Shown: piece after piece, positions 3,280 through 55,769 of the stretch
Position numbering within the stretch: the stretch's first letter is position 1
Layout: each line of letters opens with the position of its first letter
Source: Alcanivorax jadensis T9
GTDB lineage: Bacteria > Pseudomonadota > Gammaproteobacteria > Pseudomonadales > Alcanivoracaceae
NCBI RefSeq assembly: GCF_000756655.1
Contig: NZ_ARXU01000002.1
Coordinates: 1 to 64,000, forward strand
Direction: 5' to 3'
DNA: 64,000 nucleotides
Notes under the pieces: model-generated
Told to the model about the DNA's origin: nothing
What the model saw: the letters and a program-made list of their open reading frames with translations, nothing else
Database searches by the model: none
Made by a program: the position numbers and the translations under genes

Positions 3280-3300
3280 AGCTGCTCCCCCTATCCAGAT

Positions 3301-3654: not shown

Positions 3655-3735
3655 GTAGGGTGCACTGAGCCTGGGGTGAACTGCACGGCATGGGCGGGGA
3701 ATGGTGCAGTTCGCCTTAGGCTCAGTGCACCCTAC
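3655..3735. repeat. Long inverted repeat (32-base arms)
   Basis: Arms at 3655-3686 and 3704-3735 are complementary at 29 of 32 positions and enclose a 17-base loop. Each arm carries GTAGGGTGCACTGAGCC at its outer end. There is no T-tract, so it is not a standard terminator. It resembles a fossil palindromic element at the border of the cassette region. Confidence 0.75.
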
Positions 3736-3790
3736 TCGTTCGGTAGAGGGGTAGGTGCGGTAACGCTAGGCGCGCACGAGATGGAGTGCA

Positions 3791-38580: not shown

Positions 38581-38632
38581 CTGGATGCTGGCCGTGCCAG
38601 ACGGAAATATCGGCAACGTAAAGGATCACTGC

Positions 38633-40023: not shown

Positions 40024-40036
40024 TAGCTCGTAGCTA
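40024..40036. repeat. TAGCTACGAGCTA repeat at a stop codon
   Basis: On the minus strand the 13-mer starts with the TAG stop of the DUF3570 gene, as it does at folK (18944-18956). Confidence 0.65.
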
Positions 40037-41161
40037 ATACCACAACGTAAACAGCAGTCGGGTTACCGTGGCATCAAAGCTGTACAGCGGTTCGGTGCCC
40101 GGGGTGGAAGCGACGCGAATGTCGCGGAAATTCTCGTAGTCAAAGCTGAAGCGATCCACCCACAGATTCAGCCCCGCCCGGTCGAAGGTGTCCCAGTTTG
40201 ATTTGCTGAATTCGAAGCCAATCCCCACCCCCACCACGGTAGAGCTGAATTCGCTGAGTTCCTTGTCTCTGGCAAGAAAATTCTGGGCATTCTGGAATGG
40301 AAATAGATCCGCATAAAAATCCGCCTGGCCTTGCTGGTAGGCCCGGTAACGCCCTTCCAGAGTCCACTTTCCTCCCAGCGGCTGTATCAGCTTCAATTGC
40401 CAGCTATTGGCATCAATACCCCAGGAATCGTTATACAGCCGGTACTCGCCATGCAGGCCGGCCCGCCAGGGCAAGTAGTAGGACAGCCGTAACGAGGTAG
40501 CTTCACTGGTACGGGTTTCTGGATAGCGCTCCGGCTCAAAGCTGTAATTGCCACCACCCGTCAAATAACGCACGGAGCGGTAGGGATTGTTCAGGTAGCC
40601 TTCATCGGTGATCAGCTCATGGCCCAGGCTAGCCCTCAGATTGCGGGTCAGAATCTGCGATATATTGATCCGAAAATGCTGCCGATCGGCTTCTTCAGCG
40701 AAGGTATTATCATCACTTCGAAACACTTCATCCCAGCCTTTCGAATAGCCAAAGCTCAGGGTTGTCAGATCGCCAAAGAAATCCTGGCTCATGTCAAAGT
40801 GTACCGAGTTCGCCTCGAAATCATTTTCTTCGCTGTTGGCGTAACTTAACGAATAGATGGCCTTGCCATGCAGGTAATCCACGCCAACACTTTTCTCGGT
40901 GCGCTCTTCTGAGTAAGGACTGGCACTGACCAGCACATCAATGGAAGCAGCGGAGACTTCATCCACATAATAATTGGCATGCACCGCTACCTTGTCGGCC
41001 ACCGACTTTCTTACCAGCACCGACGGGCCATTGATTTTCATACCGCCCCCCTCGTACTGGTGGTACAGCACATCAAGCCGATCCTCCGGCAATACCGAGG
41101 CTTGCAACAACGCGCTTGAACAGATCAGCACTCCCACCAGCAACGTACGCATCAGTTGCAT
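40034..41161 (-). CDS. DUF3570 outer-membrane barrel protein
   Basis: A 375-residue exported protein with a signal peptide (MQLMRTLLVGVLICSSALLQAS). Alternating beta-strands continue to a C-terminal aromatic ending (LLFTLWY) typical of outer-membrane barrels. The opening LPEDRLDVLYHQYEGGGMKINGPSVLVRKS (key residues) is characteristic of DUF3570. GGAGG lies six bases before the ATG, which overlaps the DUF4266 gene by ten bases. It is the last gene of a five-gene run (SH3-barrel, barrel, TlpA, DUF4266, DUF3570). Function is unknown; transport or anchoring for a redox system is inference. Confidence 0.85.
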   Translation of the reverse strand: MQLMRTLLVGVLICSSALLQASVLPEDRLDVLYHQYEGGGMKINGPSVLVRKSVADKVAVHANYYVDEVSAASIDVLVSASPYSEERTEKSVGVDYLHGKAIYSLSYANSEENDFEANSVHFDMSQDFFGDLTTLSFGYSKGWDEVFRSDDNTFAEEADRQHFRINISQILTRNLRASLGHELITDEGYLNNPYRSVRYLTGGGNYSFEPERYPETRTSEATSLRLSYYLPWRAGLHGEYRLYNDSWGIDANSWQLKLIQPLGGKWTLEGRYRAYQQGQADFYADLFPFQNAQNFLARDKELSEFSSTVVGVGIGFEFSKSNWDTFDRAGLNLWVDRFSFDYENFRDIRVASTPGTEPLYSFDATVTRLLFTLWY

Positions 41162-41373
41162 CCGCAGCCTCCACCGGCACTGCCTTCCGCCCCACGCATG
41201 CTTTCCCGCGCCTGATGCACATGGCCCATGTAGCTTTCCGCCACCGGATGGGCAGACACGTTCATCACCGGGTCCGCCAGGCGGGCACGCTCGTAGGGCT
41301 TTAGCCAGGGTTTTACGGCACAGCCGCTGGCGGTGAACGCCAGCAATAGCACAAGACCGGAGAGACGCATCAT
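41152..41373 (-). CDS. DUF4266 small lipoprotein ending in GGGCGCN
   Basis: A 73-residue lipoprotein. The signal MMRLSGLVLLLAFTASGC ends in a lipobox. The mature part carries the family pattern CAVKPWLKPYERARLADPVM and ends in GSAGGGCGCN, with two cysteines in a Gly-rich tail. ATG 41373 has GGAG five bases upstream; an ATG at 41388 overlapping the tlpA-like stop is the alternative. It is tightly coupled to both neighbours. The Cys-Gly-Cys tail could bind metal, form a thioether or disulfide, or be modified, but none is shown. Confidence 0.85.
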   Translation of the reverse strand: MMRLSGLVLLLAFTASGCAVKPWLKPYERARLADPVMNVSAHPVAESYMGHVHQARESMRGAEGSAGGGCGCN

Positions 41374-41384
41374 TCCCACTCCAT

Positions 41385-41879
41385 TCATTCCAGCACCAGC
41401 GCCTTCACCTGGTCTTCGTATTTATCCATATAGCCGTCCTTGTAACCACGATGGTGATGACGGACCACACCATTACGGTCAATCAGTACGGTGGTGGGCA
41501 TGGCATCCACGCCATAGGTTTCACTGGTACTGTTCTGCGGATCAAACAACACCGGGAAGGTCACCGGAATCTTGTCCAAAAGACGATCCGCCTGGTCACG
41601 ATTCTCATCCAGGTTAACGCCCAGCACGGTGAAGCCGTAGTCGCGATACTCCTGATAAAGATCGTCCAGCAACGGCATTTCGGTACGGCAGGGTCCGCAC
41701 CAGGAGGCCCAGAAATTCAGCAGAATCACGGTTCCCCGCTGCTCGCTTAGCTTCAGGTTGCTGCCATCCAGGGTCTTGAGCGTAAAGTCCGGTGCTGGCG
41801 CACCTTCCTCTGCGGCAAGCGCATTGCTGGAAAAAATCAGCGCCAACGCGCCTATCACTAGCATCAGTGTCTTTTTCAT
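41385..41879 (-). CDS. TlpA-like periplasmic thioredoxin
   Basis: A 164-residue exported thiol-disulfide oxidoreductase. A signal peptide (MKKTLMLVIGALALIFSSNALA) is followed by a thioredoxin fold with the active site NFWASWCGPCRTEMP and the cis-proline region DAMPTTVLIDRNG. GGGGGAG is five bases before ATG 41879. It lies between a predicted barrel and the Cys-containing DUF4266 lipoprotein, near several c-type cytochrome genes. Likely duties are reducing haem-binding cysteines or acting on the DUF4266 tail (inference). Confidence 0.92.
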   Translation of the reverse strand: MKKTLMLVIGALALIFSSNALAAEEGAPAPDFTLKTLDGSNLKLSEQRGTVILLNFWASWCGPCRTEMPLLDDLYQEYRDYGFTVLGVNLDENRDQADRLLDKIPVTFPVLFDPQNSTSETYGVDAMPTTVLIDRNGVVRHHHRGYKDGYMDKYEDQVKALVLE

Positions 41880-41903
41880 TATTGCTCCCCCCATTTCTTA
41901 TTT

Positions 41904-42566
41904 TCAGAAAAACAGACTGACACCCGCGGTCAGCTCCAGATTGTGCGTGGTCTTATCCTCGCCAAGCACATCCAGATTAAAGATATGGTCTTTCATATCC
42001 ACCCGCACGGCGATCAAATCATTGACCAGCAGGCGGTAACCCACACCGACCCCCAGGGTGAAATGCTCTTCGCCGGCGAAATCGGTAATCCCGGCTCCAC
42101 CAAGCAGATAAAGGGCGTTATTGAACGTTCGTCCGCCAGACAGAAAGGCCTCGCCGGGTAGCAGGTTGTACCCCACCGACGCCTGGTAATAAGTGAACTC
42201 ACGCTCATCATCATTCAGCAGACGCACCCCCGCATTAAGGGTTTCGAAACTGGTTTCTCCAGCCTCGGCGCGGCCCAGCACTGCCTCGAAGAACACATCC
42301 TCGGACAAGTGATAGTCCAGCCGCACGCCCACCACTGGCTGAGCACCAAAATCTTCAATCGAGAGAATGCCTGCGTACACACCCGCCTCGAAGTTTTCGC
42401 TATCGATATCCGCTTCCTTGATACGACGCCGCTCGATTTGCGGATCCAGTACCGATTCCGGGTCTGCGTCGCGCACAGCGGATGTATCGTCTGCCGTTTC
42501 AGCTATTGCTCCTGCCGGGAGTAATAGAGGCAGGATCAGAAAAGCAGGGAGAAACCGAGTTTCCAT
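41904..42566 (-). CDS. Predicted outer-membrane beta-barrel protein
   Basis: A 220-residue exported protein. A signal peptide (about residues 1-22) is followed by an acidic, charged stretch (IERRRIKEADIDSENFEAG). An eight-stranded-type barrel begins at GVYAGILSIEDFG and ends in the outer-membrane signature VSLFF. This pattern resembles the outer-membrane beta-barrel domain family found with SH3-barrel partners. It overlaps the preceding gene by 31 bases. Function unknown. Confidence 0.82.
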   Translation of the reverse strand: METRFLPAFLILPLLLPAGAIAETADDTSAVRDADPESVLDPQIERRRIKEADIDSENFEAGVYAGILSIEDFGAQPVVGVRLDYHLSEDVFFEAVLGRAEAGETSFETLNAGVRLLNDDEREFTYYQASVGYNLLPGEAFLSGGRTFNNALYLLGGAGITDFAGEEHFTLGVGVGYRLLVNDLIAVRVDMKDHIFNLDVLGEDKTTHNLELTAGVSLFF

Positions 42567-43279
42567 TCTTCCAGATTCCGGTTGTCGTTTTCTTCGGTGA
42601 ACAGCACATAACTTCGGTATTCACCCCGTAATACAAAACCGCGAGCCAGGTAGGCCTTCAGCCCGGCGCCGGCAAAAGCCAGCGTTTCGTCACGATTTTC
42701 CGGGCGCACCAATGTCGCCCGGGGTTCAATACTGGCGCGGCCGGTTCCCAGCATCGTATAGGGAGAGATTCTCCAGCGCGGAAACAGCTGATGCTGAAGG
42801 TTGAAATCAATCAGCTTGGTATTGGAAAAATTCCCACTGGCCTGGGTAAACATCGCCTCGGCAGTGAGGTTTTCTGTGAACCGGTAGCCAAGCCCCACCG
42901 CCAGCGAGGTGACACCTTCAAGTTCTCCCGCCAGCACCGATGCCTGCCAGTGCCCACCAGTAAAATCCTCGTGACCCAGATTCTGCAGTTCCGGTGTCTC
43001 ACCGCTGCCGTCCAGGGTAGACAGTAACGCCTTGCGAGGCACCCAGCCGATGCGGCCACGGGCGGTTTCAACCTTGATCCAGCCGGCGCGCTGGAACAGC
43101 AGGGTCAGCGGCGCATGGCGCTCTACCACATGGAAAACCGGGTAACCGCGACCGGGCCCGGTATGGATATCCACATAGGGCTCCGCAACCTTGACTTGCA
43201 AGGGAGGTGACGGTTCGGATGAAACCGCTTTTACCGGTAACAGCACCAGCATGGATAACAACACAACTACAAGGCGCAA
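42536..43279 (-). CDS. SH3-domain plus outer-membrane beta-barrel protein
   Basis: A 247-residue exported protein. A bacterial SH3 domain lies in the first half (VKVAEPYVDIHTGPGRGYPVFHVV by key residues, and KVETARGRIGWVPRKAL). A barrel like that of the next gene follows, ending LGFSLLF. I favour the TTG start at 43279, with GGGGAG nine bases upstream and a clean signal peptide (RLVVVLLSMLVLLPVKA). The upstream ATG at 43324 falls inside a strong hairpin. SH3 domains often bind cell-wall peptides, so it may tie the barrel to peptidoglycan. Confidence 0.8.
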   Translation of the reverse strand: MRLVVVLLSMLVLLPVKAVSSEPSPPLQVKVAEPYVDIHTGPGRGYPVFHVVERHAPLTLLFQRAGWIKVETARGRIGWVPRKALLSTLDGSGETPELQNLGHEDFTGGHWQASVLAGELEGVTSLAVGLGYRFTENLTAEAMFTQASGNFSNTKLIDFNLQHQLFPRWRISPYTMLGTGRASIEPRATLVRPENRDETLAFAGAGLKAYLARGFVLRGEYRSYVLFTEENDNRNLEEWKLGFSLLF

Positions 43280-43313
43280 CGGGTGCGTCTCCCCTTTCAA
43301 TCGGACATCAAAT

Positions 43314-43344
43314 AAGCCCGGCATGTCGATTCCGGGCTTGTTTT
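43314..43344. terminator. Hairpin between HzsA-like gene and barrel operon
   Basis: AAGCCCGG/CCGGGCTT with a ten-base loop, followed by GTTTT on the plus strand and TTATTTG on the minus strand. It may attenuate minus-strand transcription from the HzsA-like gene into the barrel genes. It covers the alternative ATG at 43324. Confidence 0.5.
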
Positions 43345-43365
43345 CATGGCAAGAATTTTACGCCA

Positions 43366-43392
43366 TTCGCCTTGCGAACAAGGCTCCAACGG
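43366..43392. repeat. REP-like unit (CCGTTGG-GCCTTG family)
   Basis: On the minus strand CCGTTGGAGCCTTGTTCGC then AAGGCGAA forms a short hairpin. Related units occur at 51475-51503, 53177-53195 and 53232-53257. Confidence 0.5.
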
Positions 43393-43424
43393 CACCAGTC
43401 AGGTTATCCAGACTTGGCGCTTTA

Positions 43425-46034
43425 TCAGTTTTCGGGCACCCGGAACGGGTCGTTATAGAGCTGCGCCCCAAGATCGGCCCATTCCGCCAGCAACCGCAAT
43501 TCTTCCACCTTCAGCCAGTCGTCATGGGCACCGCCCTGTACAAAGATATCAAAGAATGCGTCGGAATTGCGCGCCTGGCCAGCCCGAATGAGTGCCGAGA
43601 CCGGCACGGTTTCCGTCACCGGAACAGGATTACCCATGTTATCCAGAATCAGCTCCCCGTCTTCATCAGTTTGGTAAACCACATTGCCTTCACCGTCAGT
43701 GACGATCTCCAGCCGGTCGACCAAGGCGCCGTCTTCCAGCACCAGCTCGTTGTCATTGAACAGCAGTTCCCGGTAGCTGGTGGGCTGTAACGGCTGATCT
43801 GCAGACGCCTCACCAGTGAGCTCCAGCTGCGCCGGCGGCACCTGCAACGCATTCATGGCATCCCGGCGATTATGGCAAGAAGAACAGGTAACATCCTGCA
43901 GGCTGCCACCCACGTCCGCCTGGCGTGGCAGATCCCAAAGCGGCTGAATGTGGTCCTGATAATGAATCACCGTGCGGCATTCCGCCTGCCATTGCTGCTG
44001 ACAGGGCACCGGGGCAGGCGCCAGTGTCTGCAGGTCCGCATAGGCCAGCAACAGGTCTTCAGCCGGAGCCGGATCGCTCCAGGCATCAAAGCCGCGCATA
44101 TCAATGGCCGGGATTTCCCGTTCCGGATAGAGCCGGGTGAGCGCCTGAGCCATGGTTTCGCCGGCATCGGCAAACCCGACCACATCGGTGCGGGTATTTG
44201 GGAAGGGCTGCCCGGTCAGGGGAGCACCCGCATTGATCGAAGGTGCCATGCCATCAGTACGGCCATGGGGCAACGGCGAATTGTTGGCGTGGCAGCCCTG
44301 GCATTGCAGGGTTTCGCCCGGGCGCAGATTGATCCATGCACCATGACGGCTGTACACCGCCTTGCCCGTGGCATCGACCAATTGCAGGCCCAGCGGCGCG
44401 TCAGCGGGTACCCGCGCTCGCACCGAGCCGTCCGGCTCTACCGGCACATAGCCGACAATTTCGCGCATGCCGAAATTAGCCGCCCGCCCGAACTGGGCTC
44501 CGGCGATATCCCGGACATCCTCGTCGGGGATCAACACGCCCTTGGTAATCCGCAGAAAACGCACCTGCCGCTCTTCCGGGGCCACCAGGGAAGGATCCCG
44601 GAACTGCTCGAGCGTGGAAATACCGGGAAGCCGAGGGTTATTGAAACTGACAAACCGGCTATCCATGTCGTAGACACTGCGAATATCCAGTCGCGCCAGG
44701 TTGTCTTCAGCGAGGGCATCGTCCCGCTCATTGGCCACGGCCTGCGTTGGCAGGGTTCGCGACGTTGCCACAGCCAGTTCTGTGACCCAGAGATTCGCCT
44801 GCGGGGTGACCACTGGCCGCTGAGTTCCCTCGGCCGGGTCCAGAATCCATAGACCGAAGGCAGGCGGTGCTTCCGGCAGTCCCTGATTTAGATACTCGGC
44901 GGTACAGGGCCGCAGGGTTTGCCCCTCCCGCAAGCGACAGGGAGACCAGGCGATCAAAAAACGACCGGAGCCATCATCCATGCTCACCAAATCCGCCAGT
45001 CGCCCTTCCACCGCCACGGCATCACCCAAAGAGCTGGCCGGGCCCGGCAACGCCTGCTCTGCCTGACTACCAACCCGACCAAACAGCGGGCCCTCACGAT
45101 TCACGAAGTTGCCAATATCGATGGCCAGCGGCTGCATCTGCCCGGCTCCGGCCTCGCGCAAACGTGCAGCGGTGAGCAGACGACCATCGCCCATGAGCGA
45201 GAGGGGCAGGAATTCCCGAGTGCGATTATTACCGGCGTCATGGCTATCGGCACCGTATAGGGGGGTAAGCCCGGTTCCGTCCGGGTTAACCCGGTACAGA
45301 TCAAAGCGGTTTTCATTATCCTTGTTATCCCAGCGCAGGAAGATCACCCGCCCATCGCGGCCCACCAGGGGCGCCACATCATGGCTCATATTGAATGTGA
45401 TCTGCTCAATCTCCACGCCGTCCGCACTCATCACGTGCAGGGCGAAGGCATAAGTATCACGGCCTTCTTCCAGCGGGGTGAACTGGGGCTTGCCCTCATC
45501 CAGCAACCTGGCCCGGGCCTGGCGCTGGCGGGTTGAGGCAAACACGATACGGCCATCGGGCAAATAGGCCGGATAGCGATCCTGGCCTTCTTCTGCGCGC
45601 AGGTCGCTGCTGATCAGCCGTCGCGCGACGCCCGTTTGAAAATCATATTCCCACAGGTTCCAGGTAGGCTGCTCATCCTCATCTGCATCGACAATTTCCG
45701 GCGCCCGAGCGGAAAATAGCAGACGACTGCCGTCGTAGCTCATGGTGAGATCACGGACGTCGTGGCCGGAACCGAAGATCGTCGTGGAGACATCACGAGT
45801 AACAGCACGGGAGGAAGCGCTATCACGCACCATCAGCCTGGCCCCGGCCTGGAACGCTGCCGGTTCTTCCAGGGACTCAACCACAATCTCACCGTCGTCA
45901 TCCCTGGGCAGCGAACGCTGCACATACGCCACCGGGATATCGGTTACCGTGGGGTCCTTCTGCTGATCCCCCCCGTCCATGCCTCCGCAGCCGCTTATCC
46001 CCACAAGCAGACCCAGCAGGACAGGTACCCTCAT
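43425..46034 (-). CDS. HzsA-related di-haem lipoprotein with beta-propeller
   Basis: An 869-residue exported lipoprotein (signal ending in lipobox ISGC). The N-terminal half has TolB/WD40-like propeller repeats (DGSRLLFSAR, DGRIVFASTR, DGRVIFLRWDN). The middle resembles the hydrazine synthase alpha-subunit family (REIVGYVPVEPDGSVRARVPAD). Two c-type haem sites follow, CQGCH at about residue 578 and CSSCH at about 717. ATG 46034 is preferred over GTG 46043. It is divergent from the DUF1588-like haem gene. Anammox chemistry is not implied; such proteins occur widely in unrelated bacteria. Confidence 0.85.
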   Translation of the reverse strand: MRVPVLLGLLVGISGCGGMDGGDQQKDPTVTDIPVAYVQRSLPRDDDGEIVVESLEEPAAFQAGARLMVRDSASSRAVTRDVSTTIFGSGHDVRDLTMSYDGSRLLFSARAPEIVDADEDEQPTWNLWEYDFQTGVARRLISSDLRAEEGQDRYPAYLPDGRIVFASTRQRQARARLLDEGKPQFTPLEEGRDTYAFALHVMSADGVEIEQITFNMSHDVAPLVGRDGRVIFLRWDNKDNENRFDLYRVNPDGTGLTPLYGADSHDAGNNRTREFLPLSLMGDGRLLTAARLREAGAGQMQPLAIDIGNFVNREGPLFGRVGSQAEQALPGPASSLGDAVAVEGRLADLVSMDDGSGRFLIAWSPCRLREGQTLRPCTAEYLNQGLPEAPPAFGLWILDPAEGTQRPVVTPQANLWVTELAVATSRTLPTQAVANERDDALAEDNLARLDIRSVYDMDSRFVSFNNPRLPGISTLEQFRDPSLVAPEERQVRFLRITKGVLIPDEDVRDIAGAQFGRAANFGMREIVGYVPVEPDGSVRARVPADAPLGLQLVDATGKAVYSRHGAWINLRPGETLQCQGCHANNSPLPHGRTDGMAPSINAGAPLTGQPFPNTRTDVVGFADAGETMAQALTRLYPEREIPAIDMRGFDAWSDPAPAEDLLLAYADLQTLAPAPVPCQQQWQAECRTVIHYQDHIQPLWDLPRQADVGGSLQDVTCSSCHNRRDAMNALQVPPAQLELTGEASADQPLQPTSYRELLFNDNELVLEDGALVDRLEIVTDGEGNVVYQTDEDGELILDNMGNPVPVTETVPVSALIRAGQARNSDAFFDIFVQGGAHDDWLKVEELRLLAEWADLGAQLYNDPFRVPEN

Positions 46035-46237
46035 TATTTTCACCGTTCGTCCGTTTTTTTCTGGTTTGTGTCAGTATCGCGAATCTGTTGTTGATTTTCT
46101 GGGCCCCAATTCACAGAGCCTGATGCAGAATGTCATGGACAATGATTGCGGGAAACGGGAAATCTGTTAAACGGTCGATCTGTACTGCCAATCAATGACA
46201 GACGGACGACAGCGTATCAAAGAAAAAGGATACAGCC
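46035..46237. promoter_or_regulatory. Divergent intergenic region of the redox cluster
   Basis: About 200 AT-rich bases between the two divergent arms of the cluster must contain both promoters. No consensus pair stood out by eye. AAAGGATACAGCC gives the ribosome binding site for the plus-strand gene. Confidence 0.4.
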
Positions 46238-47422
46238 ATGAAAGGCTATCGGGGGATATTTCTGGTGACGCTGGCTCTCAGCTTGCCTGTGACAGGCATG
46301 GCCAACAGTCGCGACCAGGCACAACGCATTCACAATCGTCTGGCGGGTGTACCGGCGGATGCTGCCACGCTCACTACCATGGCCAACCTGATCCAGGGCA
46401 ACCCTACCAGCGGCCCCCGTGACGCGGCGGAACTGGCCATGGACCACCCGGCGTTCTATAACGTCACTGTCAAGCAGTTCGCCACACCGTGGACCAATGA
46501 GGCCCAGGATGTGTTCGCGCCATTGAATGACTATACCGCCACGGTAATCGGTGCCATTCGCGATGATCTGGACTTTCGGCGAATCCTCTACGATGACCTG
46601 CTTTACGTGGGCAACGTCACCCCAGCGGCGTCTGCGGACAGCAATGCCCATTACCGCAACCTGGAGATTCAGCACGCCAATCTGGCCGATGTGCTTTCCG
46701 CCAGCAGCCAGGCCAGCCAGTACGGCACGCCGTCACAGGCCGTTGCCGGGGTGCTGACCACCCGTGCCGCTGCCAACGCCTTTTTCTATGCCGGCACCAA
46801 CCGGGCCATGCTGCGCTTCACCCTGATGAACCATCTCTGTCGTGACCTGGAACAGGTGCAGGACACCACTCGCCCCTCCGACCGCATCCGTCAGGATGTC
46901 AGCCGCAGCCCCGGCGGCGACAGCCGTATTTTCCGCAACAACTGCATCAGCTGTCACAGCGGCATGGACCCGCTGGCCCAGGGCTTTGCCTACTACGACT
47001 GGGAAGGCCCGCAGGAAGGCGATGGTGGCCGCATGGTCTACAACACCAGCGCCGATCCGGATACCGGCACCCGGGTGCAGGGCAAATATCTGATCAACAG
47101 CAACAACTTCCCCTGGGGGTACATCACCCCGGACGACAACTGGGACAACTACTGGCGAAAAGGCCCCAATGCCAACCTGGGCTGGGACCCGAATCTGAAC
47201 GGCAGTGGCAGCGGCGCCGCCAGCCTGGGCCGGGAACTGGCCCACAGCGATGTTTTCGCCACTTGCCAGGCGGAGAAGGTTTTTCAGGCGGTGTGCCTGC
47301 GCAAACCCGCAGACAGTGCCGACACCTCTCAGCTTGAGAACATGACGAGCCAGTTCAAAAACGATAACTACCGCATGAAGACGCTGTTTGCCGATGCGGC
47401 CACCTACTGCATGGGGGACTGA
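46238..47422 (+). CDS. DUF1588/DUF1585-like mono-haem exported protein
   Basis: A 394-residue protein with a signal peptide (about residues 1-22). One c-type haem site, CISCH (C236-H240), lies in NNCISCHSGMDPLAQGFAYYDWEG by key residues. This is like the DUF1588 pattern in planctomycete-type cytochromes, where CxxCHxxMDPxGFA is typical. A DUF1585-like ending follows (GRELAHSDVFATCQAEKVF). It is shorter than the planctomycete proteins and lacks a separate cytochrome domain at the N-terminus. First gene of the plus-strand arm; the next gene starts four bases after its stop. Confidence 0.8.
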   Translation: MKGYRGIFLVTLALSLPVTGMANSRDQAQRIHNRLAGVPADAATLTTMANLIQGNPTSGPRDAAELAMDHPAFYNVTVKQFATPWTNEAQDVFAPLNDYTATVIGAIRDDLDFRRILYDDLLYVGNVTPAASADSNAHYRNLEIQHANLADVLSASSQASQYGTPSQAVAGVLTTRAAANAFFYAGTNRAMLRFTLMNHLCRDLEQVQDTTRPSDRIRQDVSRSPGGDSRIFRNNCISCHSGMDPLAQGFAYYDWEGPQEGDGGRMVYNTSADPDTGTRVQGKYLINSNNFPWGYITPDDNWDNYWRKGPNANLGWDPNLNGSGSGAASLGRELAHSDVFATCQAEKVFQAVCLRKPADSADTSQLENMTSQFKNDNYRMKTLFADAATYCMGD

Positions 47423-47426
47423 GGCG

Positions 47427-49877
47427 ATGCGATACTTACCACTTGCCAGCGCTCTCCTGGCCGCGTTGATCAGCGGCTGTGGCGGCAGCAGCAGCGGCTC
47501 CGACACCACCCCGAACGTTAACAATGGGGGCGGCAACAACAACGTCAACTACGACGGCCCTGCACCACGCAATGCTGACGTCTCCGCTTTCAAGATCTAT
47601 ATCTGGAACAATATGGTCAGCGAGCAGCGCTGCGGCGCCTGTCACCGCGATCAGCAGCCTGCCTTCCTGCAGACCGGCGATATCAACCAGGCCTATGCAG
47701 CAGCCAACCCGCTGATCAACCTTAACCAGCCAGCGTCCTCGCAGATGGTGCAGAAAGTCGCCGGTGGGCATAACTGCTGGGAATCTGATTCGCAATTCTG
47801 CGCCGATCAGATCAGTACCTGGATCAGCGCCTGGGCTGGCGAAAGTCTGGGGCTGGGGGGCGGCACCACGGAACTGGAAGAACCGCCGATCAAGGACCCG
47901 GGCAACAGCAAGAATTTCCCCCAGGACCCGAGCCTGTTCCAGACCCATGTCTATCCGTTGCTGGACGACCATTGCAGCGACTGTCACCAGAGTGATGCCA
48001 ACACCCCCCAGGGCCCCTATCTGGCTGCAGATGATGTGAACGAGGCATACACGGCCGTGCGCAGCAAGATCGACCTGAACAGCCCGGAATTGAGCCGTCT
48101 GGTAGAGCGTCTCGGTGAAGACAGCCACAACTGCTGGAGCGATAACTGCGACAGTGATGCCCTGGCCATGGAAAATGCCATTCGCGCCATGGCGAACGCC
48201 ATTGTCCCTACCGCCCCCGATAACGATCTGGTGCTGAGCAAATCACTCAATGTGGACGATGGCACCCTGGCCGCCGGCGGCGGCCGTTACGAGAGCAACA
48301 TCATCGCCCGCTATGAATTCAAGACCGGGGAAGGCCTCACCGCCTTCGACAGCTCCGGAGTAGACCCGTCCATCCACCTGCAATTCAATGGCGACGTCAC
48401 CTGGGAAGGCGGCTGGGGCATTCGTCTCAACAACGGCAAAGCCCAGGGCAGCACCGCCACCAGCAAGAAGCTCAGTGACATGATCCGCACCACCGGCGAA
48501 CTGACCCTGGAAGCCTGGCTGGTGCCCGCCAGCACCGGCCAGGATGATGCCCATATCATCAGTTACTCCGCCGGCCCGGATGCCCGCAACCTGACACTGG
48601 CGCAAAGCGGCAGCAATTATCAGCTGTTCCAGCGTATCGGCGAAGCCACTGACGGCAACGGCGAACCGGTGCTGGAAACGGCTGACGATCCGCTGCAGGC
48701 CAGCCTGCAGCACGTGGCGGTGACCTTCGACCCGGTAAACGGCCGACAGATCTATATCAATGGTGCCCGCAACGGCGCCACCGATCCGGTCATCCCCGCC
48801 CTGCTCAACACCTGGGATGACACCTTCGCTTTAGTCCTGGGCAACGAAGCCTCCAGTGACCGCCCCTGGGAAGGGGTAATCCGTTTCGCCGCCATCCATA
48901 ACCGGGCACTCACTGAAGAACAGATTCGCACCAACTTCGACGCCGGCGTCGGCGAGCGTTATTTCCTGCCCTTCTACATCGGTCATCTGATCGACCAGCC
49001 CGGCGCCTATGTGGTGTTCGAAGTGTCCCGCTTCGATAACTTCAGCTACCTGTTCGCCGCGCCCTACTTCATCAACCTGGAGCAGGACATCGTCAGCGAA
49101 GAAGTCCCCCTGGCCGGCCTACGTCTGGGCATCAATGGACAGGTACCGGATGTGGCACAAGCCTTCGCCACCCTGGACACAGAGATCGGCGGCGACGGCT
49201 ACAGCGAACAGGGAGAAACCCTGTCCCGCCTGGGCACCTTGCTGCCGGTGGAGCAGGGCCAGGACAACGATGAATTCTTCCTGACCTTCGAGCGGCTGGG
49301 TAGCCATACCCATGTGCACACTGAACCGCAGCCCTTGCCGTTGACCCCTAACGAATACGGCGAACAACCACTGGCAGGGCTACGCAACTTTGCCGAAATC
49401 AACGCCACCATGAGTGTGCTTACCGGAGTACCAGAGGGTTATGGAGACGTGCCGGACACCTATCAGCGCCTGCGCACCCAGCTTCCCAGCGAGGAAAACA
49501 TTGAAGCCTTCCTCACTGCTCATCAGGTCGGCGTGGCGCAGCTGTCGATCGAGTACTGCAACGCCCTGGTGGAAGCCGAGCGCACCAATGATGGCAGCAT
49601 CACACCCCTGTTCTCAGGGCTGAACTACAACGTTGGTGCCGACACCATTACCCAGCAACAATGGCGGGACTGGGTCATTTCACCATTGTTTGAACGCATG
49701 GTCGGCAACGGCCAGGCGGATCAGCCAGCCCGGGCCGATGTGGAGGGGGAACTGGAAAGCCTGCTGTTCAACACCAATCTGACACAGTGCAGCAGTGACT
49801 GCGTGGAACGCACCGCCACCGCGGCAAAGGCGGCCTGTGCCGCCATGCTGGGCAGTGCCACCATGCTGATGCAATAA
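47427..49877 (+). CDS. Di-haem lipoprotein with LamG-like domain
   Basis: An 816-residue exported lipoprotein with lipobox LISGC (Cys18) and a Gly/Asn/Ser linker. Two c-type haem sites appear early: CGACH (C69-H73) and CSDCH (C183-H187). Residues from about 290 to 440 form a concanavalin/LamG-like sandwich (TTGELTLEAWLVP, HVAVTFDPVNGRQIYINGARNG by key residues). The C-terminal 350 residues are unassigned and contain several cysteines near the end (QCSSDCVERT). LamG domains usually bind glycans or proteins. Coupled tightly to the genes on both sides. Confidence 0.83.
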   Translation: MRYLPLASALLAALISGCGGSSSGSDTTPNVNNGGGNNNVNYDGPAPRNADVSAFKIYIWNNMVSEQRCGACHRDQQPAFLQTGDINQAYAAANPLINLNQPASSQMVQKVAGGHNCWESDSQFCADQISTWISAWAGESLGLGGGTTELEEPPIKDPGNSKNFPQDPSLFQTHVYPLLDDHCSDCHQSDANTPQGPYLAADDVNEAYTAVRSKIDLNSPELSRLVERLGEDSHNCWSDNCDSDALAMENAIRAMANAIVPTAPDNDLVLSKSLNVDDGTLAAGGGRYESNIIARYEFKTGEGLTAFDSSGVDPSIHLQFNGDVTWEGGWGIRLNNGKAQGSTATSKKLSDMIRTTGELTLEAWLVPASTGQDDAHIISYSAGPDARNLTLAQSGSNYQLFQRIGEATDGNGEPVLETADDPLQASLQHVAVTFDPVNGRQIYINGARNGATDPVIPALLNTWDDTFALVLGNEASSDRPWEGVIRFAAIHNRALTEEQIRTNFDAGVGERYFLPFYIGHLIDQPGAYVVFEVSRFDNFSYLFAAPYFINLEQDIVSEEVPLAGLRLGINGQVPDVAQAFATLDTEIGGDGYSEQGETLSRLGTLLPVEQGQDNDEFFLTFERLGSHTHVHTEPQPLPLTPNEYGEQPLAGLRNFAEINATMSVLTGVPEGYGDVPDTYQRLRTQLPSEENIEAFLTAHQVGVAQLSIEYCNALVEAERTNDGSITPLFSGLNYNVGADTITQQQWRDWVISPLFERMVGNGQADQPARADVEGELESLLFNTNLTQCSSDCVERTATAAKAACAAMLGSATMLMQ

Positions 49878-49887
49878 GGGGAAAATC

Positions 49888-51468
49888 ATGAAACGTCACT
49901 TTCTAAAAAAACGTACCCAGCCCCTGCATCCGGATGCACCCTTGTTGAATCTGGGCCACGGCAAACCGGTCAGCCGCCGGGACATGCTGGGCCGCGGCTT
50001 GCTCACCGGCGCAGCGTTCGGCAGCGTCGGCATGTTCGGCCTGTTCAGTAACCCTCGCGAAGCCATGGCGGCATTGTCCAGTGATCTGGAAGGCATGAAA
50101 ACCGACTGCGGCATCGCCGCCGCCGGGGCCGGCAAGATCCCCTTCATCTGTTTTGATCTCGCCGGTGGCGCTAACATTGCCGGCTCCAACGTGCTGGTTG
50201 GTGGCGAGGGAGGACAACAGGACCTTCTCAGCAGTGCGGGTTATTCCAAGCTTGGGCTACCGGGCAACCTGGCACCCAATAATGACCCGGGCACCATCAA
50301 TACCGAGCTGGGGCTGGCATTCCATAGTGACTCCCCTTTTCTGCTTGGCATTCTCGACAAGGCACCAAACGCCACCGCCAATGTGAATGGCTGCGTGATC
50401 CCGGCACGCTCGGAAAACGATACCGCCAATAATCCCCACAACCCCATGTACGGTATTTTCAATGCCGGTGCGGACGGCGAACTACTGTCGTTGATAGGCT
50501 CTCGCAGCTCCATATCCGGTGGCAACTCCATGTCCCCGGATGCGTCCATCATCGCCTCAGCCCGTCCCACCAAGGTAGACCGGCGCTCCGATGTAACCGG
50601 CCTGGTAGACACCGGCAAACTGGTCGGACTGCTCGATCAGGCCGATGCCGTGTCGGTAATGGAATCCATCGCCCGCATCAGCCACAAACGCATCGACCGC
50701 ATCGACAGTGGTCTTACCAATACCAACCGCCGCGACAACCTGCGCAACCTGCTGCGTTGTGGTTATGTGGAAGCGGCAGATATCACCGACCGCTACGGCG
50801 ACCCTTCCACCCTGGATATCCGCCAGGACATGGACATTCTCGGCATCTTCTCGGACGCCGAGTTGAACGATCGGGAGTTTGAGAAAACGGCCTCGGTGAT
50901 GAAGCTGGTGGTCAACGGCTACGCCGGTGCCGGTTGTATCAGCATGGGTGGTTTCGACTATCACACCGGCGAACGGGGAACCGGTGAAATCCGCGACCGC
51001 CGTGCCGGGCGGTGCATGGGAGCCTGCCTGGAGTACGCTCGCCGCAAGGGAGTGCCACTGATGATTTATGTGTTCAGTGATGGCTCCGTGGCCAGCAACG
51101 GGCGCATCGATGACTCTGCCGAAGGACGTGGCAAGGGCGAATGGACTGGCGATAATTCATCGACCGCGGCGTCCTTCTTTCTCGTTTACGACCCCAATGG
51201 CCGCCCCACCCTCAATACGGCGGGCAGCACGGCGGAACAACATCAGCAGCTGGGCTGGATGCGCCCGGATGCCTCGGTGGAAACCGCTGGCACCCCGGCC
51301 GCCAACAACGTCAACCTGTTAGCGGAAACCGTGTGGCTGAACTACATGGCGCTTCATGGTGAGCAGGGCTTGTTCTCGGAGAAGTTCCCCAATCACAGTC
51401 TGGGCAACAGCGACTCCATGGACCGGCTTACCGCCTTCGAGCCCATCGTTAGTGGTACCATTACCTGA
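49888..51468 (+). CDS. DUF1501-like protein with Tat signal
   Basis: A 526-residue exported protein. The N-terminus has a twin-arginine motif SRRDML (29-34) followed by a hydrophobic stretch (LLTGAAFGSVGMFGLF). That would route it folded through Tat. The rest resembles DUF1501 (alkaline-phosphatase-like fold), with FDLAGGANIAGSNVLVGG near the start, GGFDYHTGERGTGEI, and MIYVFSDGSVASNG. In planctomycetes DUF1501 genes commonly sit beside DUF1592/1588-type cytochrome genes, and the same pairing is seen here. Substrate unknown. Confidence 0.82.
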   Translation: MKRHFLKKRTQPLHPDAPLLNLGHGKPVSRRDMLGRGLLTGAAFGSVGMFGLFSNPREAMAALSSDLEGMKTDCGIAAAGAGKIPFICFDLAGGANIAGSNVLVGGEGGQQDLLSSAGYSKLGLPGNLAPNNDPGTINTELGLAFHSDSPFLLGILDKAPNATANVNGCVIPARSENDTANNPHNPMYGIFNAGADGELLSLIGSRSSISGGNSMSPDASIIASARPTKVDRRSDVTGLVDTGKLVGLLDQADAVSVMESIARISHKRIDRIDSGLTNTNRRDNLRNLLRCGYVEAADITDRYGDPSTLDIRQDMDILGIFSDAELNDREFEKTASVMKLVVNGYAGAGCISMGGFDYHTGERGTGEIRDRRAGRCMGACLEYARRKGVPLMIYVFSDGSVASNGRIDDSAEGRGKGEWTGDNSSTAASFFLVYDPNGRPTLNTAGSTAEQHQQLGWMRPDASVETAGTPAANNVNLLAETVWLNYMALHGEQGLFSEKFPNHSLGNSDSMDRLTAFEPIVSGTIT

Positions 51469-51474
51469 CGGCAA

Positions 51475-51503
51475 CCGTTGGAGCTTTGCGAGCAAAGCTC
51501 CAA
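51475..51503. repeat. REP-like hairpin after the DUF1501 gene
   Basis: CCGTTGGAGCTTTG then CGAG then CAAAGCTCCAA forms a perfect 11-base stem. There is no T-tract. It begins six bases after the stop codon at 51468. Confidence 0.6.
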
Positions 51504-51531
51504 TATCTACACACTGGTCCCGGATACACCG

Positions 51532-52506
51532 ATGCATCGCCCTCGCCCGCTTCGCTCCCTGCTTGCCAGCCTGCTACTGCTGCTGGCGCTCCCCGTGCAC
51601 GCCGACTGGCAACAACACGATTGGGATGTGATGGGCACCCGCGCCAGTGTTTCCCTGTGGTCAGAGAGCAATGCCGCTCCCCTTTTCCAGCAACTGGAAG
51701 CGGAAATGGAGCGGCTCAACCAGTTACTGTCGCCCTGGGTGGAAGACAGTGAACTGGCTCGGCTTAACCAGCGTGGCCATGAAAAACCGCAAACCATCAG
51801 CCCCGAGTTCTATCGGTTACTGGAACGGTCCCTGCATTTCTATCAGCTCACCGACGGCGCCTTCGACATTACCTTTGCCAGTGCCGGCCATCTCTATGAC
51901 TACCGGGAAGGTAAGGCGCCAAACGCTTCCCAGCTAGCCGATGCGGCCGAGCACATCGGCGCCGACCGCATTGAGTTACTGCCGAATCACCGGGTGCGCT
52001 ATCGCACACCCGGCACCCGCATCGATCTGGGCGGCATCGCCAAGGGCTATGCCATCGACCGGGGTATCGCGCTGTTGAAAGAGGCGGGTATTAAGCATGC
52101 CTGGCTGTCCCTGGGCGGTGACAGTTATGTGCTCGGTGACCACCGGGGTCGCCCCTGGGAAGTGGGCATCCAGCACCCTCGTAACCAGGAGAAGGTGGCC
52201 ATGCGCCTGCCCATCAGCGACCTGGCCATGTCCACCTCCGGCGATTACCAACGCTACTTCATCCGTGATGGCCGCCGCATCCACCACATCCTGTCACCGC
52301 AGACCGGCAAGAGTATCGATGGTCTGGCCAGCGTTACCGTGCTCGCGGACAACAGCCTGGATGCGGATGCTCTCTCCACAAGTGTCTTTGTGCTGGGAGT
52401 AGAAAAAGGCCTGGCGCTGATCAACCGGCTAGCGGATACCTCGGCCATCATCATCGACCGCAACGGCAATGTTTTTTATTCCGACGATTTAACGACACCG
52501 GAGTAA
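51532..52506 (+). CDS. FAD:protein FMN transferase (ApbE family)
   Basis: A 324-residue exported enzyme (signal LLASLLLLLALPVHA). ApbE proteins cleave FAD and attach FMN covalently to a Ser/Thr of target proteins. Family segments are intact: MGTRASVSLW, TDGAFDITFASAGHLYDY (key residues), RIDLGGIAKGYAIDRG, the metal-binding SLDADALSTSVFVLG. The start at 51532 gives the signal peptide. It closes the plus-strand arm of the redox cluster. No consensus DxxSGAT acceptor was noticed in the neighbouring proteins. Confidence 0.92.
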   Translation: MHRPRPLRSLLASLLLLLALPVHADWQQHDWDVMGTRASVSLWSESNAAPLFQQLEAEMERLNQLLSPWVEDSELARLNQRGHEKPQTISPEFYRLLERSLHFYQLTDGAFDITFASAGHLYDYREGKAPNASQLADAAEHIGADRIELLPNHRVRYRTPGTRIDLGGIAKGYAIDRGIALLKEAGIKHAWLSLGGDSYVLGDHRGRPWEVGIQHPRNQEKVAMRLPISDLAMSTSGDYQRYFIRDGRRIHHILSPQTGKSIDGLASVTVLADNSLDADALSTSVFVLGVEKGLALINRLADTSAIIIDRNGNVFYSDDLTTPE

Positions 52507-53273: not shown

Positions 53274-55139
53274 TTACTCTATGGGCGCCTCGGAACCACC
53301 AGCCGGCGGCTCACGCCGGGTCCGCAACGCCTTGTTGTACAGATCGGCCAGTCCTTCATGGGCTGCCGCACTGAAACGCTTCAACCGCTTGCGGGTCACT
53401 GTGACCTGCTCAAACGCGGACGCCTGCAGGGAATATTGCTGACGCCGCATCAGCCGCTCACCGCGCTTTTGCAAGCTGGCCAGCTCCTGCTCCAGAGCGG
53501 GCAGTTCCTGGCGGAAAAAATCCAGCCGCTGGACCCGGTTACTCGCCACCATGACCCGGCTACGCAATTCACGGGTCTGGTCGAGCATGGCGCTGATGTC
53601 GTTCAGTTCCTGCTGGCGCTGCCACTGGCGAGGCACGATATCCTGCTGCATTTCCCACAAAAGAACCCCCTTGTAGAAATCCAGCTTGGCGGTCATATCC
53701 GGCCGTTTACGCTTGCCCCAACTCCGGGTTTTGCGTTCGGCCTCCTGCTGAGCCTGCCAAAGACGCTGCTCATCGTCAGTGGCAAAAGGCAGCGGCTCCT
53801 GATCAGATACAGCAGTCCGGTAATCACCCTGCAGGCGGGTAAGGCGACCCTGAAAATCTTGCTGTGACAATTCCCGCAGCAGGGCCTGAGCCTGGGGCCT
53901 GACTTCCTGATGCTTGCGCTCATGGGCGTCGAGCATGGTCTGCATGGAGGGCAAGGTATTCTGCCATTGAGTCAGCAGATTCCGTTGGCGCATCAGCTCA
54001 TGGTAGTTGTGCCAGCCATGCTGGAACTCCCTGGTGGCAAACCATTCGTAGAAAGTCGGAAAACTCTTCACCCGCTTTGGTAAAAACGGCGGCACCGGGT
54101 CCATGGCGGTGGACCAGCGTGGCTCACCGACCATTTCCGTAAACCAGTCACCATTGGCAATCCGCGCCTCCACTTCCAGCAGGTACTCTTCCAGCCCGTC
54201 GAAGCGTTCCAGCGCAGTCTGGAAAGCCTGACGAGCAGAACGCTGATCGCCCATCTGTTCGTACAGATAGGGGATCGCCAGCTGCGCTTCCTGCACGGTG
54301 GAACGCTGGATCGATTTACGGTCCAGTTTCTGCAGCACCGGCAACGCCCTGGCCGGCTGATTCTCGATCAACAGGGCACGGGCGTAGAGCAGCAGGGAGA
54401 CATCAGCGAACGGCCCTTCCAGGCGGGCATCGCGCAGCAGCTGCAAAGCACGGTCCTCCTGATCGCTGCGCAGCATGTAAATCGCCAGCGCCAGCATGGC
54501 CTTGTCCTTGATCGCGTTTACCTCCTGCGCACCGGGCGGCAGGTTGGCTAGTTCCCACAACCATTCCTGGCCCAGACCAGGGTGCTTGCCGTTGATCCAG
54601 CTGATCGCCAGGTTATAGCGCAGGTAGGCATTGAGCGGGTGATTAGCGGCAAAGGCATCCAGGGATTCCGCCGCCTCTTCATAGCGGCCCAGACGCATCA
54701 GCACCCGCGCCCGCAGGCTGTGGTAAACCTCTTGCAGGTCCTCAGGCTGCGTACCGGCCTGCTGCTCAAGAGTTTCCAAAGCGCGAGCGTATTTCTGTTG
54801 TCGGTAGTAAAGCCCGGCCAGATGAATCCAGGCCCGCTGGGCCACCTCGCCACTGACCTGCTGGTCCAGCAACGCACTGAACACCCGCTCGGCATCCTCC
54901 GGCATACCGTAGGCGCTGTACATGGCGCCCAGCAGCACTTCCAGATCTGCCCGGTGCACATCCACCTCGCCGCGCTCAAGGGCCATCTGTGCCCGCGTCA
55001 GGGCAGCGAAGTAATCCCCCTGCAGATAGAGATATGCCACCTCCCCATAGGCCAACTCCTGCACCTGATGCGGTTTGTCCAGCCGCCCCCAGGCCAGTGA
55101 GCTGATCAGCAACAACACCACGCCAGACCACTTCAGCAT
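53274..55139 (-). CDS. TPR-repeat exported protein
   Basis: A 621-residue protein with a signal peptide (MLKWSGVVLLLISSLAWG) and a series of TPR-like helices in the first 320 residues (LALERGEVDVHRADLEVLLGAMY, GLYYRQQKYARALETLEQQ by key residues). The C-terminal third is rich in Gln/Arg/Glu and probably forms coiled coils (about 440-600). The start at 55139 is set by the signal peptide; the frame stays open upstream. It starts seven bases after the preceding gene, so the two are an operon. Probably a periplasmic scaffold; function unknown. Confidence 0.8.
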   Translation of the reverse strand: MLKWSGVVLLLISSLAWGRLDKPHQVQELAYGEVAYLYLQGDYFAALTRAQMALERGEVDVHRADLEVLLGAMYSAYGMPEDAERVFSALLDQQVSGEVAQRAWIHLAGLYYRQQKYARALETLEQQAGTQPEDLQEVYHSLRARVLMRLGRYEEAAESLDAFAANHPLNAYLRYNLAISWINGKHPGLGQEWLWELANLPPGAQEVNAIKDKAMLALAIYMLRSDQEDRALQLLRDARLEGPFADVSLLLYARALLIENQPARALPVLQKLDRKSIQRSTVQEAQLAIPYLYEQMGDQRSARQAFQTALERFDGLEEYLLEVEARIANGDWFTEMVGEPRWSTAMDPVPPFLPKRVKSFPTFYEWFATREFQHGWHNYHELMRQRNLLTQWQNTLPSMQTMLDAHERKHQEVRPQAQALLRELSQQDFQGRLTRLQGDYRTAVSDQEPLPFATDDEQRLWQAQQEAERKTRSWGKRKRPDMTAKLDFYKGVLLWEMQQDIVPRQWQRQQELNDISAMLDQTRELRSRVMVASNRVQRLDFFRQELPALEQELASLQKRGERLMRRQQYSLQASAFEQVTVTRKRLKRFSAAAHEGLADLYNKALRTRREPPAGGSEAPIE

Positions 55140-55146
55140 GTTCGCC

Positions 55147-55644
55147 TCAGCGCCAGTCACGGAACAGGAGACGAGGCTGCTGTTTGGCCTTGTCATCCTC
55201 AATATGCAGCTGAACGAAATGGCGGCCATGGCGCTTTTCAAACTGCCCGGTGACACCCCGTCGAATTTCCCTGTCCTCTGGCCCCATGCCGGTCACAAAG
55301 GCGGTGATTTCGTGCTCGCCGTTTTTCACGTTGGCCAGCGCCAGTCGCTGCACCGCACCATTTTTCAGGGCCCGGATTTCCCGCTCGGTGTACAGATGGC
55401 TGGCCAGGACTTCGCCATCCAGCTCCAGAGTAATGCTGTCCGGCTGGAAGTAATGGCCCACATCCAGGGACACATAGATGCCCACCTGGGTATCGGCAGG
55501 AAACAGCAGTTCCTCCTCCAGCAATAGCAGACGCTTATTGACTTCCAGTACGTCGCGCTTGAAGTCCGCCAGCTCCTGATCCAGCTCGGCCCCCTGAATC
55601 TGGCTGGCAACCAGCATCAATAGCAACACTACTACTTGGCGCAT
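55147..55644 (-). CDS. Small exported protein paired with the TPR protein
   Basis: A 165-residue protein with signal peptide MRQVVVLLLMLVASQIQG, then a helical stretch (ELADFKRDVLEVNKRLLLLEEELLF) and a beta-rich domain (VGIYVSLDVGHYFQPDSITLELDG by key residues). The latter looks like an immunoglobulin-like or PEGA-like sandwich. The family is not recognised. It is the first gene of a two-gene operon with the TPR protein, suggesting a periplasmic complex. It is divergent from an SDR gene across 125 bases. Confidence 0.75.
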   Translation of the reverse strand: MRQVVVLLLMLVASQIQGAELDQELADFKRDVLEVNKRLLLLEEELLFPADTQVGIYVSLDVGHYFQPDSITLELDGEVLASHLYTEREIRALKNGAVQRLALANVKNGEHEITAFVTGMGPEDREIRRGVTGQFEKRHGRHFVQLHIEDDKAKQQPRLLFRDWR

Positions 55645-55769
55645 TGCGCTCCCCCAATCCCGATGGTTTTTTGGCAATCTACCATAGCCATGCGACTTTG
55701 ACTGTTGCGATCGTCACACCTGATCGGTTCTTCACGTTAACTTGTCCGATCAACGGCGATTCTTCGTCC

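Follow-up and report, generated by a model that had tools for sequence, protein, structure and literature searches.

A flavinylation gene set has been described that consists of ApbE, DUF3570, a thioredoxin-like protein and DUF4266, and in Chlorobium luteolum the DUF3570 protein takes flavin mononucleotide (FMN) via ApbE at two [S/T]GA[S/T] serines; in the sections of that work drawn on here, such clusters are referred to as 'DsbD systems' or as DsbD-less variants (PMC8238504). Another described system, the gammaproteobacterial core complex of the Agl/Glt-Nfs type machines, comprises gltC, D, E and G together with aglR, Q and S in one region and, outside the myxobacteria, possesses one additional gene (Luciano et al., PMC3169522). 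The relevant passages present this complex as standalone, its function there being unknown (PMC3169522, PMC3858216), and in Myxococcus the paralogous barrels GltB and GltA are described as an outer-membrane subcomplex with the tetratricopeptide repeat (TPR) protein GltC (PMC4488436). Here, we analysed a stretch of 64,000 nucleotides of Alcanivorax jadensis T9 (hereafter the window, with which contig C2 of G000, a genome of 3.63 Mb, begins) that holds a divergent cluster of ten genes in which the kinds of this flavinylation set stand beside genes for haem proteins, and we describe how this cluster relates to the Agl/Glt core complex.

A. jadensis is a marine oil-degrading bacterium. A check of the open reading frames (ORFs) places the ten genes at 40034-52506, as an earlier note on this DNA had done, and confirms its layout, in which the HzsA-like gene shares the minus strand with five others and four genes lie on the plus strand (Table 1). 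Based on Pfam and NCBIfam profiles, the minus arm consists of a protein with an SH3 domain plus barrel, an OMP_myx_plus barrel (OMP, outer-membrane protein), a TlpA-like protein, DUF4266 and DUF3570, and the plus arm of a DUF1588/1585-like mono-haem protein, a LamG di-haem lipoprotein, a protein for twin-arginine translocation (Tat) and ApbE, a flavin adenine dinucleotide (FAD):protein FMN transferase whose label stands with a PF02424 match. Five CxxCH sites, the minimum that the note had given, were found again (two in the HzsA-like, one in the DUF1588-like and two in the LamG protein), as was its CxxC thioredoxin, the TlpA-like protein with WCGPC; export of the cluster proteins is predicted by eye from signal peptides and lipoboxes, without a signal-peptide program. 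The system extends past the ten genes first delimited, as two more of its genes (u1 and u3) lie at 53274-55677, separated from ApbE by one LysE-type gene. We consider the chance to be slightly better than even that the ten genes, together with u3 and u1, supply a proton-driven machine of the Agl/Glt-Nfs type, which spans the envelope, with its redox module at the outer membrane and the surface. This reading is carried by the gene content, the synteny, the constant haem and thiol motifs and the near-obligate co-occurrence with the core complex that we observed in the samples searched; under it, the products of cluster and core would be physical partners, DUF3570 would be flavinylated, and the module would lie at the surface, pass electrons and serve the handling of a cargo.

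The cluster is real and is strictly kept across a wide range of Gammaproteobacteria. By scanning named genomes with a family alignment, we retained the best 80 of at least 540 relatives, all Gammaproteobacteria as judged from their record titles, and labelled them with our own profiles; 63 of the 80 loci extend for 7 kb or more towards the plus arm and for 4.5 kb or more in the other direction, the other 17 being too short for a count of the layout. The divergent layout is kept in all 63, with the Tat, LamG and DUF1588-like genes opposite to the HzsA-like, SH3-barrel, OMP barrel and DUF3570 genes, although these are not 63 independent events, because they are the closest among the at least 540 relatives, several of the contigs are also in the order sample described below and two genomes occur twice among the 80. 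All nine genes other than ApbE are present in 56 of the 63 loci (by gene, DUF3570 in 63, DUF4266 in 62, TlpA in 56 and ApbE in 34), which shows that these families do co-occur elsewhere, the point on which the earlier note had staked its refutation. The nearest named relatives are Alcanivorax; among the matches listed, the best HzsA-like match is 96% identical and comes from the metagenome-assembled Alcanivorax Biocath_Gamma_021. Above the length limit, the numbers of CxxCH motifs are constant in the named set (two in 80/80 HzsA-like, two in 71/71 LamG and one in 78/78 DUF1588-like proteins), as is the WCxxC of TlpA (64/64), and the CxC tail of DUF4266 is found in 75/75 named relatives and in 24 of 25 sequences of the order set. 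In the order set, which takes in distant paralogues and cut genes, the HzsA-like proteins carry two CxxCH motifs in 27 of 35 cases, three in five and none or one in three. Three further samples were searched, consisting of 115 genomes of the same order, 229 genomes for the class and 398 for the phylum. HzsA-like matches occur in 32 of the 115 order genomes, three of them weak, and a marker set of five genes for the full layout is held by 18 of 34 order stretches, some of which are short contigs or paralogous loci. The Tat protein is present in eight of the 398 phylum genomes, all of the same class, a count that comes without the share of the 398 lying outside that class. Conservation and co-occurrence of this kind are far from chance.

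Clustering of the adjoining ORFs yielded recurring neighbour groups, u1 to u10. According to profiles, u10 belongs to MotA/TolQ/ExbB and u6 and u7 to ExbD/TolR, u5 is TonB-like with an AgmX/PglI C-terminal domain, u1, u2 and u4 are TPR proteins, and u8 is a short gene of approximately 100 residues without a family. This TPR/ExbB/ExbD/TonB-like operon resembles the Agl/Glt core complex of Gammaproteobacteria. In the genome of the window it is complete on contig C1 (L066) as the row u3 u1 u2 u4 u8 u10 u7 u6 u5, the u3/u1 pair in the window being a second copy. The motor of L066 (TolQ 63.8 bits, TolR 23.7 and 40.0 bits) stands beside a GltG-type protein, with the AgmX/PglI C-terminal domain at 56.8 bits against a cut-off of 40; GltG (48.5 bits), GltJ (34.8 bits) and GltE (42.5 bits, equivalog cut-off 225) all remain below their full-length cut-offs, and the two remaining TPR proteins match no Glt model. 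In content, the row matches the published seven-gene region, and u8 would then correspond to its extra gene. TIGR04565 also links the two tandem barrels of the window to one another, and their arrangement and size suggest that they may be GltA/GltB homologues. The system thus resembles the Agl-Glt gliding machine and the Nfs spore-coat machine of Myxococcus in its TolQ-like and two TolR-like proteins, GltG-type TonB-like protein, TPR proteins, small extra gene and tandem paralogous barrels, and differs from them, as far as they are described in the parts of PMC3169522, PMC3858216 and PMC4488436 used here, in its partnership with haem, flavin and thiol proteins; we make no claim of gliding.

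In several genera, cluster and core share one locus, namely in Marinobacter, Alteromonadaceae, Shewanella, Microbulbifer and one Alcanivorax. In Marinobacter (L088, L098, L116, L124) and several Alteromonadaceae, DUF3570 is followed by u3, u1, u2 and u4, and these loci continue to u10 where the stretch is long enough; in Microbulbifer (L092, L101), u3, u1 and u2 lie beyond ApbE and Tat, and in an Alcanivorax bin (L077, one of the 17 too-short loci) the cluster continues into u3 u1 u2 u4. In one genome, G326, the HzsA-like gene, the minus arm and the whole core stand together as a block, and the plus-arm trio lies about 50 kb away on that contig (L215, L216). ApbE was tallied in the 20 of 24 Tat-bearing order genomes that have long stretches and stands beside the cluster in nine, beside the core and not seen at the cluster in four (G004, G057, G058 and G083, with cores L194-L197 and clusters L035, L037, L038 and L040) and was seen at neither in seven. 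None of 11 core loci of Tat-less genomes shows ApbE (L151-L158, L165, L208, L209; some of just 10-15 kb), and in the Tat-less G006 and G049 ApbE adjoins the HzsA-like gene, with the minus arm and the core next to it (L048, L050).

Some loci show other arrangements of these genes. G058, which has the standard cluster at L038, holds in L196 (G058:C40) a second, diverged set of SH3-barrel, DUF4266, DUF3570 and OMP-barrel genes; this set adjoins a motor core that is almost complete and is flanked by ApbE at its far side. L051-L054, L063 and L207 have a divergent HzsA-like gene directly after the TonB-like u5 of the motor core and no other gene labelled as belonging to the redox cluster, save an OMP barrel in L207, which is perhaps a minimal partnership. 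In L161 (G031:C193), ORFs with 21 and three CxxCH motifs adjoin the motor core, the first of them being a putative large multihaem cytochrome. Six variant loci (L048, L050, L055, L062, L214, L216) hold u9, a small extra exported protein adjoining the HzsA-like gene and/or the minus arm; five of the six are without the LamG/Tat trio at the same place, and the u9 member in L048 carries a CxxxxCH motif.

Co-occurrence was counted genome-wide. In the order sample, core presence was defined as a u2 match at E up to 1e-20 and a strong HzsA-like match as E up to 1e-25, upon which u2 was found in 40 of the 115 genomes, 12 more with weak TPR-like matches not being counted. The core is present in 29/29 genomes with a strong HzsA-like match and in 24/24 genomes with Tat (p 1.7e-18 and 1.8e-14 in Fisher tests, which ignore kinship), and no genome among the 115 has Tat without the core. 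The class sample contains 33 genomes with Tat, 55 with u2 and 31 with both (p 4.9e-21), at most three candidates having been scored per genome and the two Tat-positive misses alone having been searched again. Within family f1, two Tat genomes have the core and two Tat-less genomes are without it. In the samples searched, the partnership of cluster and core genes is well supported.

With regard to flavinylation, the earlier note's statement that no named pathway fits was too strong, as ApbE, DUF3570, thioredoxin-like and DUF4266 genes form the published set. In the window, the Pfam-labelled ApbE, DUF3570 and DUF4266 genes are clustered as in the system of PMC8238504, whose four gene kinds are all present, with a C-terminal CXC in DUF4266; compared to what is given of that system there, the thioredoxin of the window is TlpA/AhpC-TSA-like (109.7 bits, with PF13899 at just 13.2 bits against a cut-off of 27), and there are additional genes for HzsA-like, LamG, DUF1588-like and Tat proteins and for two barrels. 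Pfam labels none of the ten genes as DsbD, although no search aimed at DsbD was made, and TPR, ExbB, gliding or hydrazine do not occur in the main text of PMC8238504. From gene context, DUF3570 is likely flavinylated. Alanine and serine at A72 S73 and A80 S81 are invariant in 71 aligned DUF3570 sequences, and site 1 reads SSAS in 22, SAAS in 20, SGAS in 19, TSAS in 11, TGAS in one and TAAS in one of 74 named relatives; among 25 order-set sequences, SGAS occurs at site 1 in three and at site 2 in five. An AlphaFold model (predicted local distance difference test, pLDDT, 92.3) gives a 16-stranded barrel with its four longest loops on one side (mean loop lengths of 11.4 versus 4.0 residues), and both candidate serines, Ser73 and Ser81, fall within a long loop (residues 70-84). 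Given this long-loop side and the usual periplasmic termini, the candidate flavins would point outward or sit at the mouth of the pore. Foldseek matches of the model are porins and transport barrels, including the polysaccharide barrels PelBC, 4y25 and AlgE.

The HzsA-like family profile finds the alpha subunit of hydrazine synthase (5c2v) at E 1.6e-18 and TolB propellers weakly. Both proteins have a propeller, a middle haem domain and a C-terminal haem domain in this order. The lipobox Cys19 and both CxxCH motifs are invariant in 23 aligned HzsA-like sequences, and so are His567, His698 and His840, which could be haem ligands. In hydrazine synthase, Tyr591 is a haem-iron ligand, which is reported to have no counterpart in the clade I-III non-anammox homologues (PMC12758564). 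The residue aligned with Tyr591, at +4 after CxxCH, is Tyr in none of the 23 sequences; the window protein has Ser there, and the others have Ser, Thr, Arg or Leu. Unlike hydrazine synthase alpha as described, the window protein is thus without the Tyr ligand, is a lipoprotein and has no beta or gamma partner among the ten genes.

DUF1501 and DUF1552 proteins are the usual neighbours of planctomycete-type cytochromes. The 'DUF1501' label given earlier to the Tat protein was not confirmed, as it has no Pfam match and none of 19 alignment members matches PF07394 at E up to 10. Its AlphaFold model (pLDDT 69) has just weak Foldseek matches (best E 0.033), the 50 rows listed belonging to the alkaline-phosphatase superfamily by a reading of their titles; local hhalign against ten DUF1501 proteins aligned the GGFDxH...SD motif at E 0.0062 and a probability of 6%, the global mode giving nothing, and a PDB sequence search with the Tat family profile gave one chance-level match. 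The fold is probably alkaline-phosphatase/DUF1501-like, and an RR motif is present in 68 of 71 relatives in the named set. The DUF1588-like protein matches DUF1585 (PSD2) at 25.9 bits, just over the cut-off of 25.8, and DUF1588 at 16.6 bits against a cut-off of 27; the true start of LamG is probably an internal ATG near 47427. Planctomycete-type cytochromes (PSCyt/PSD) may carry Laminin_G_3 or carbohydrate-binding domains and have conserved neighbours of unknown role, according to the portion of PMC5615132 used here. The window shares with them haem proteins of the LamG and DUF1588/1585-like kinds that stand next to a conserved protein, and differs in that these are split over two genes, that the Tat partner lies below Pfam detection and that the whole is linked to barrels and ApbE.

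The periplasm-to-surface redox system with barrels put forward in the earlier note fits the parts and their conservation; the note took the barrels as mere anchors and missed the core. With an Agl/Glt-type motor and TPR core present, a role as the redox module of a proton-driven envelope machine becomes more likely than that of a plain electron conduit. In such a machine, an ExbB/ExbD-like motor and the TonB-like GltG-type protein, encoded on G000:C1, would provide energy, and TPR proteins would transmit the movement to the two outer-membrane barrels, which stand in tandem. Electrons would be supplied or drained by TlpA and the CxC lipoprotein, ApbE would attach FMN to the DUF3570 barrel with its acceptor serines facing outward, and the surface haem lipoproteins (the HzsA-like propeller and the lectin-like LamG protein) together with the DUF1588-like cytochrome would trade electrons with the outside, where the partner might be a surface polymer or something else. 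The Tat protein could act as a partner enzyme or as a scaffold of the planctomycete-type cytochromes. Going one step further, it is possible, though rather doubtful, that this is an unrecognised class of envelope machine in which a proton-driven motor of the Agl/Glt type works together with an outer-membrane module wired by flavin and haem, tying mechanical or transport work at the surface to electron exchange with the outside. If true, this coupling would supply the function that the Agl/Glt core complex of Gammaproteobacteria has so far lacked. The near-obligate partnership of cluster and core makes of both questions one test, in culturable marine genera such as Marinobacter, Alcanivorax or Microbulbifer. 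Searches of the open-licence literature, supplements excluded, listed no paper that in its title or at the start of its abstract brings the Agl/Glt core together with ApbE, DUF3570 or HzsA-like genes, so an earlier mention elsewhere is possible.

Several observations weigh against the redox module we propose. The kinship of the genomes, ignored by the Fisher tests, is one; moreover, 16 of the 40 core-bearing order genomes are without Tat and 11 without a strong HzsA-like match, which indicates other uses of the core, and families f14, f16, f17 and f29 have it with and without Tat. Conversely, the weak HzsA-like genomes G078, G081 and G082 have no core match, and Tat occurs in G147 and G115 although neither has a core. 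In G115 this concerns a Tat fragment on a 3.7-kb contig. G147, a single contig, has no u2 and possesses the plus-arm trio and an HzsA-like gene in two fragments; no minus-arm gene was labelled in the 20 kb around the latter (L210, G147:C1:1988000-2007900), the rest of the genome not having been searched, and this locus looks like a decaying copy of the system. The full core of the window's own genome lies away from the cluster, with just u3/u1 in the window, and a quick tree of 68 u2 proteins groups this core with mostly standalone cores, making the partnership less direct in this Alcanivorax. The relation to GltA/GltB, GltC and GltD of Myxococcus is putative. Finally, the strict [S/T]GA[S/T] motif is absent at both DUF3570 sites of the window (SAAS, VSAS) and is a minority form among the 74 named relatives, with Gly at the second position in 20/74 at site 1 and 0/74 at site 2, so that DUF3570 probably works like the published flavinylation system and is not a proven member of it.

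A self-contained conduit of electrons from periplasm to surface, as put forward in the earlier note, is in our view unlikely; the core would then only accompany it, both being favoured by a marine life attached to surfaces. Cytochromes, CxxC and CxC proteins, ApbE and barrels could suffice for it, the full core is unlinked in the window's genome, in ten of the 56 named loci that extend 9.5 kb or more to both sides no u1-u3 and no ApbE are seen, and the close relative L071 is named as a biocathode isolate. A mere companion sits poorly with a core present in all 29 strong HzsA-like genomes and in 31 of 33 Tat-positive class genomes, sharing the locus in several genera and having ApbE at its side in four genomes, and a conduit would have to work with at most two CxxCH motifs per protein, which means that there is no MtrA-like multihaem wire among the ten. 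Quite unlikely, in our view, is a machine that handles a surface polymer or adhesin and uses haem, flavin and thiol just for folding, sensing or structure, without net electron transfer. The known Agl-Glt/Nfs machines move slime or spore-coat polymer according to the passages of PMC3858216 used here, LamG and the weak alkaline-phosphatase-like fold suit carbohydrate chemistry, and PelBC, a polysaccharide secretin and AlgE are among the DUF3570 matches, which barrel size alone may explain; what speaks for electron transfer instead is that the haem and thiol motifs do not vary among the named relatives and that a flavin transferase occurs in or near many clusters (34/63).

Reduction of ferric iron at the surface for assimilation would agree with the 25 gene clusters with a VIT1 iron transporter among the DUF3570 systems, as listed in the part of PMC8238504 used here, but is highly improbable, since no iron-transporter family is among the ten neighbour groups common to at least three loci, u3, u8 and u9 being without an informative family. 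Lastly, the domain similarity to hydrazine synthase alpha might suggest hydrazine-type nitrogen chemistry of the HzsA-like protein, to which we give next to no weight: no beta- or gamma-subunit model of Pfam or NCBIfam matches any of the ten proteins, and key residues are not conserved in the non-anammox homologues considered in PMC12758564. A hydrazine synthase function was rejected because the Tyr591 ligand is missing in all 23 aligned sequences.

Table 1. Features of the cluster and its surroundings in the window
Feature	Position	Strand	Evidence
DUF3570 outer-membrane barrel, candidate FMN acceptor	40034..41161	-	PF12094 125.6 bits
DUF4266 small lipoprotein, CxC tail GGGCGCN	41152..41388	-	PF14086 57.3 bits
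TlpA-like periplasmic thioredoxin, WCGPC	41385..41894	-	AhpC-TSA 109.7 bits
OMP_myx_plus outer-membrane beta-barrel	41904..42566	-	TIGR04565 162.9 bits, cut-off 60
SH3 domain + outer-membrane beta-barrel	42536..43324	-	SH3_3 29.2, OMP_b-brl 33.3 bits; TIGR04565 38.6 bits, below cut-off
HzsA-like beta-propeller lipoprotein, two c-type haem motifs	43425..46043	-	HZS_alpha 60.5 bits
Divergent intergenic region between the arms, 194 bp	46044..46237	.	sequence
Mono-haem DUF1588/DUF1585-like (planctomycete-type) secreted protein	46238..47422	+	PF07624 25.9, PF07627 16.6 bits
LamG di-haem lipoprotein	47388..49877	+	Laminin_G_3 75.2 bits
Tat-exported protein, probably alkaline-phosphatase/DUF1501-like fold	49888..51468	+	Foldseek, hhalign, RR motif; no Pfam match
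ApbE, FAD:protein FMN transferase	51478..52506	+	PF02424 278.6 bits
u1, TPR periplasmic protein of GltC-like size	53274..55256	-	conserved neighbour, TPR
u3, small exported partner of u1	55147..55677	-	conserved neighbour; no Pfam/NCBIfam match

Scans for regulatory sites gave seven promoter-like sites where 5.7 were expected, which is not above shuffles, and 22 terminator-like sites versus 15.0 (standard deviation 3.8) in shuffles; neither was used. The upstream phospholipase A1 gene at 38585-39730 was rejected as a part of the system, as L031 is the only one of the 34 stretches L031-L064 in which it adjoins the cluster. At the other end of the window, positions 1-4000 have a guanine-cytosine (GC) content of 43-45% within a contig of 60% GC and possibly constitute a defence island at the start of the contig: one protein encoded there is an AbiJ_NTD5 protein with a match to a TIR effector model in its later part, and another weakly matches a YhcG-type nuclease.

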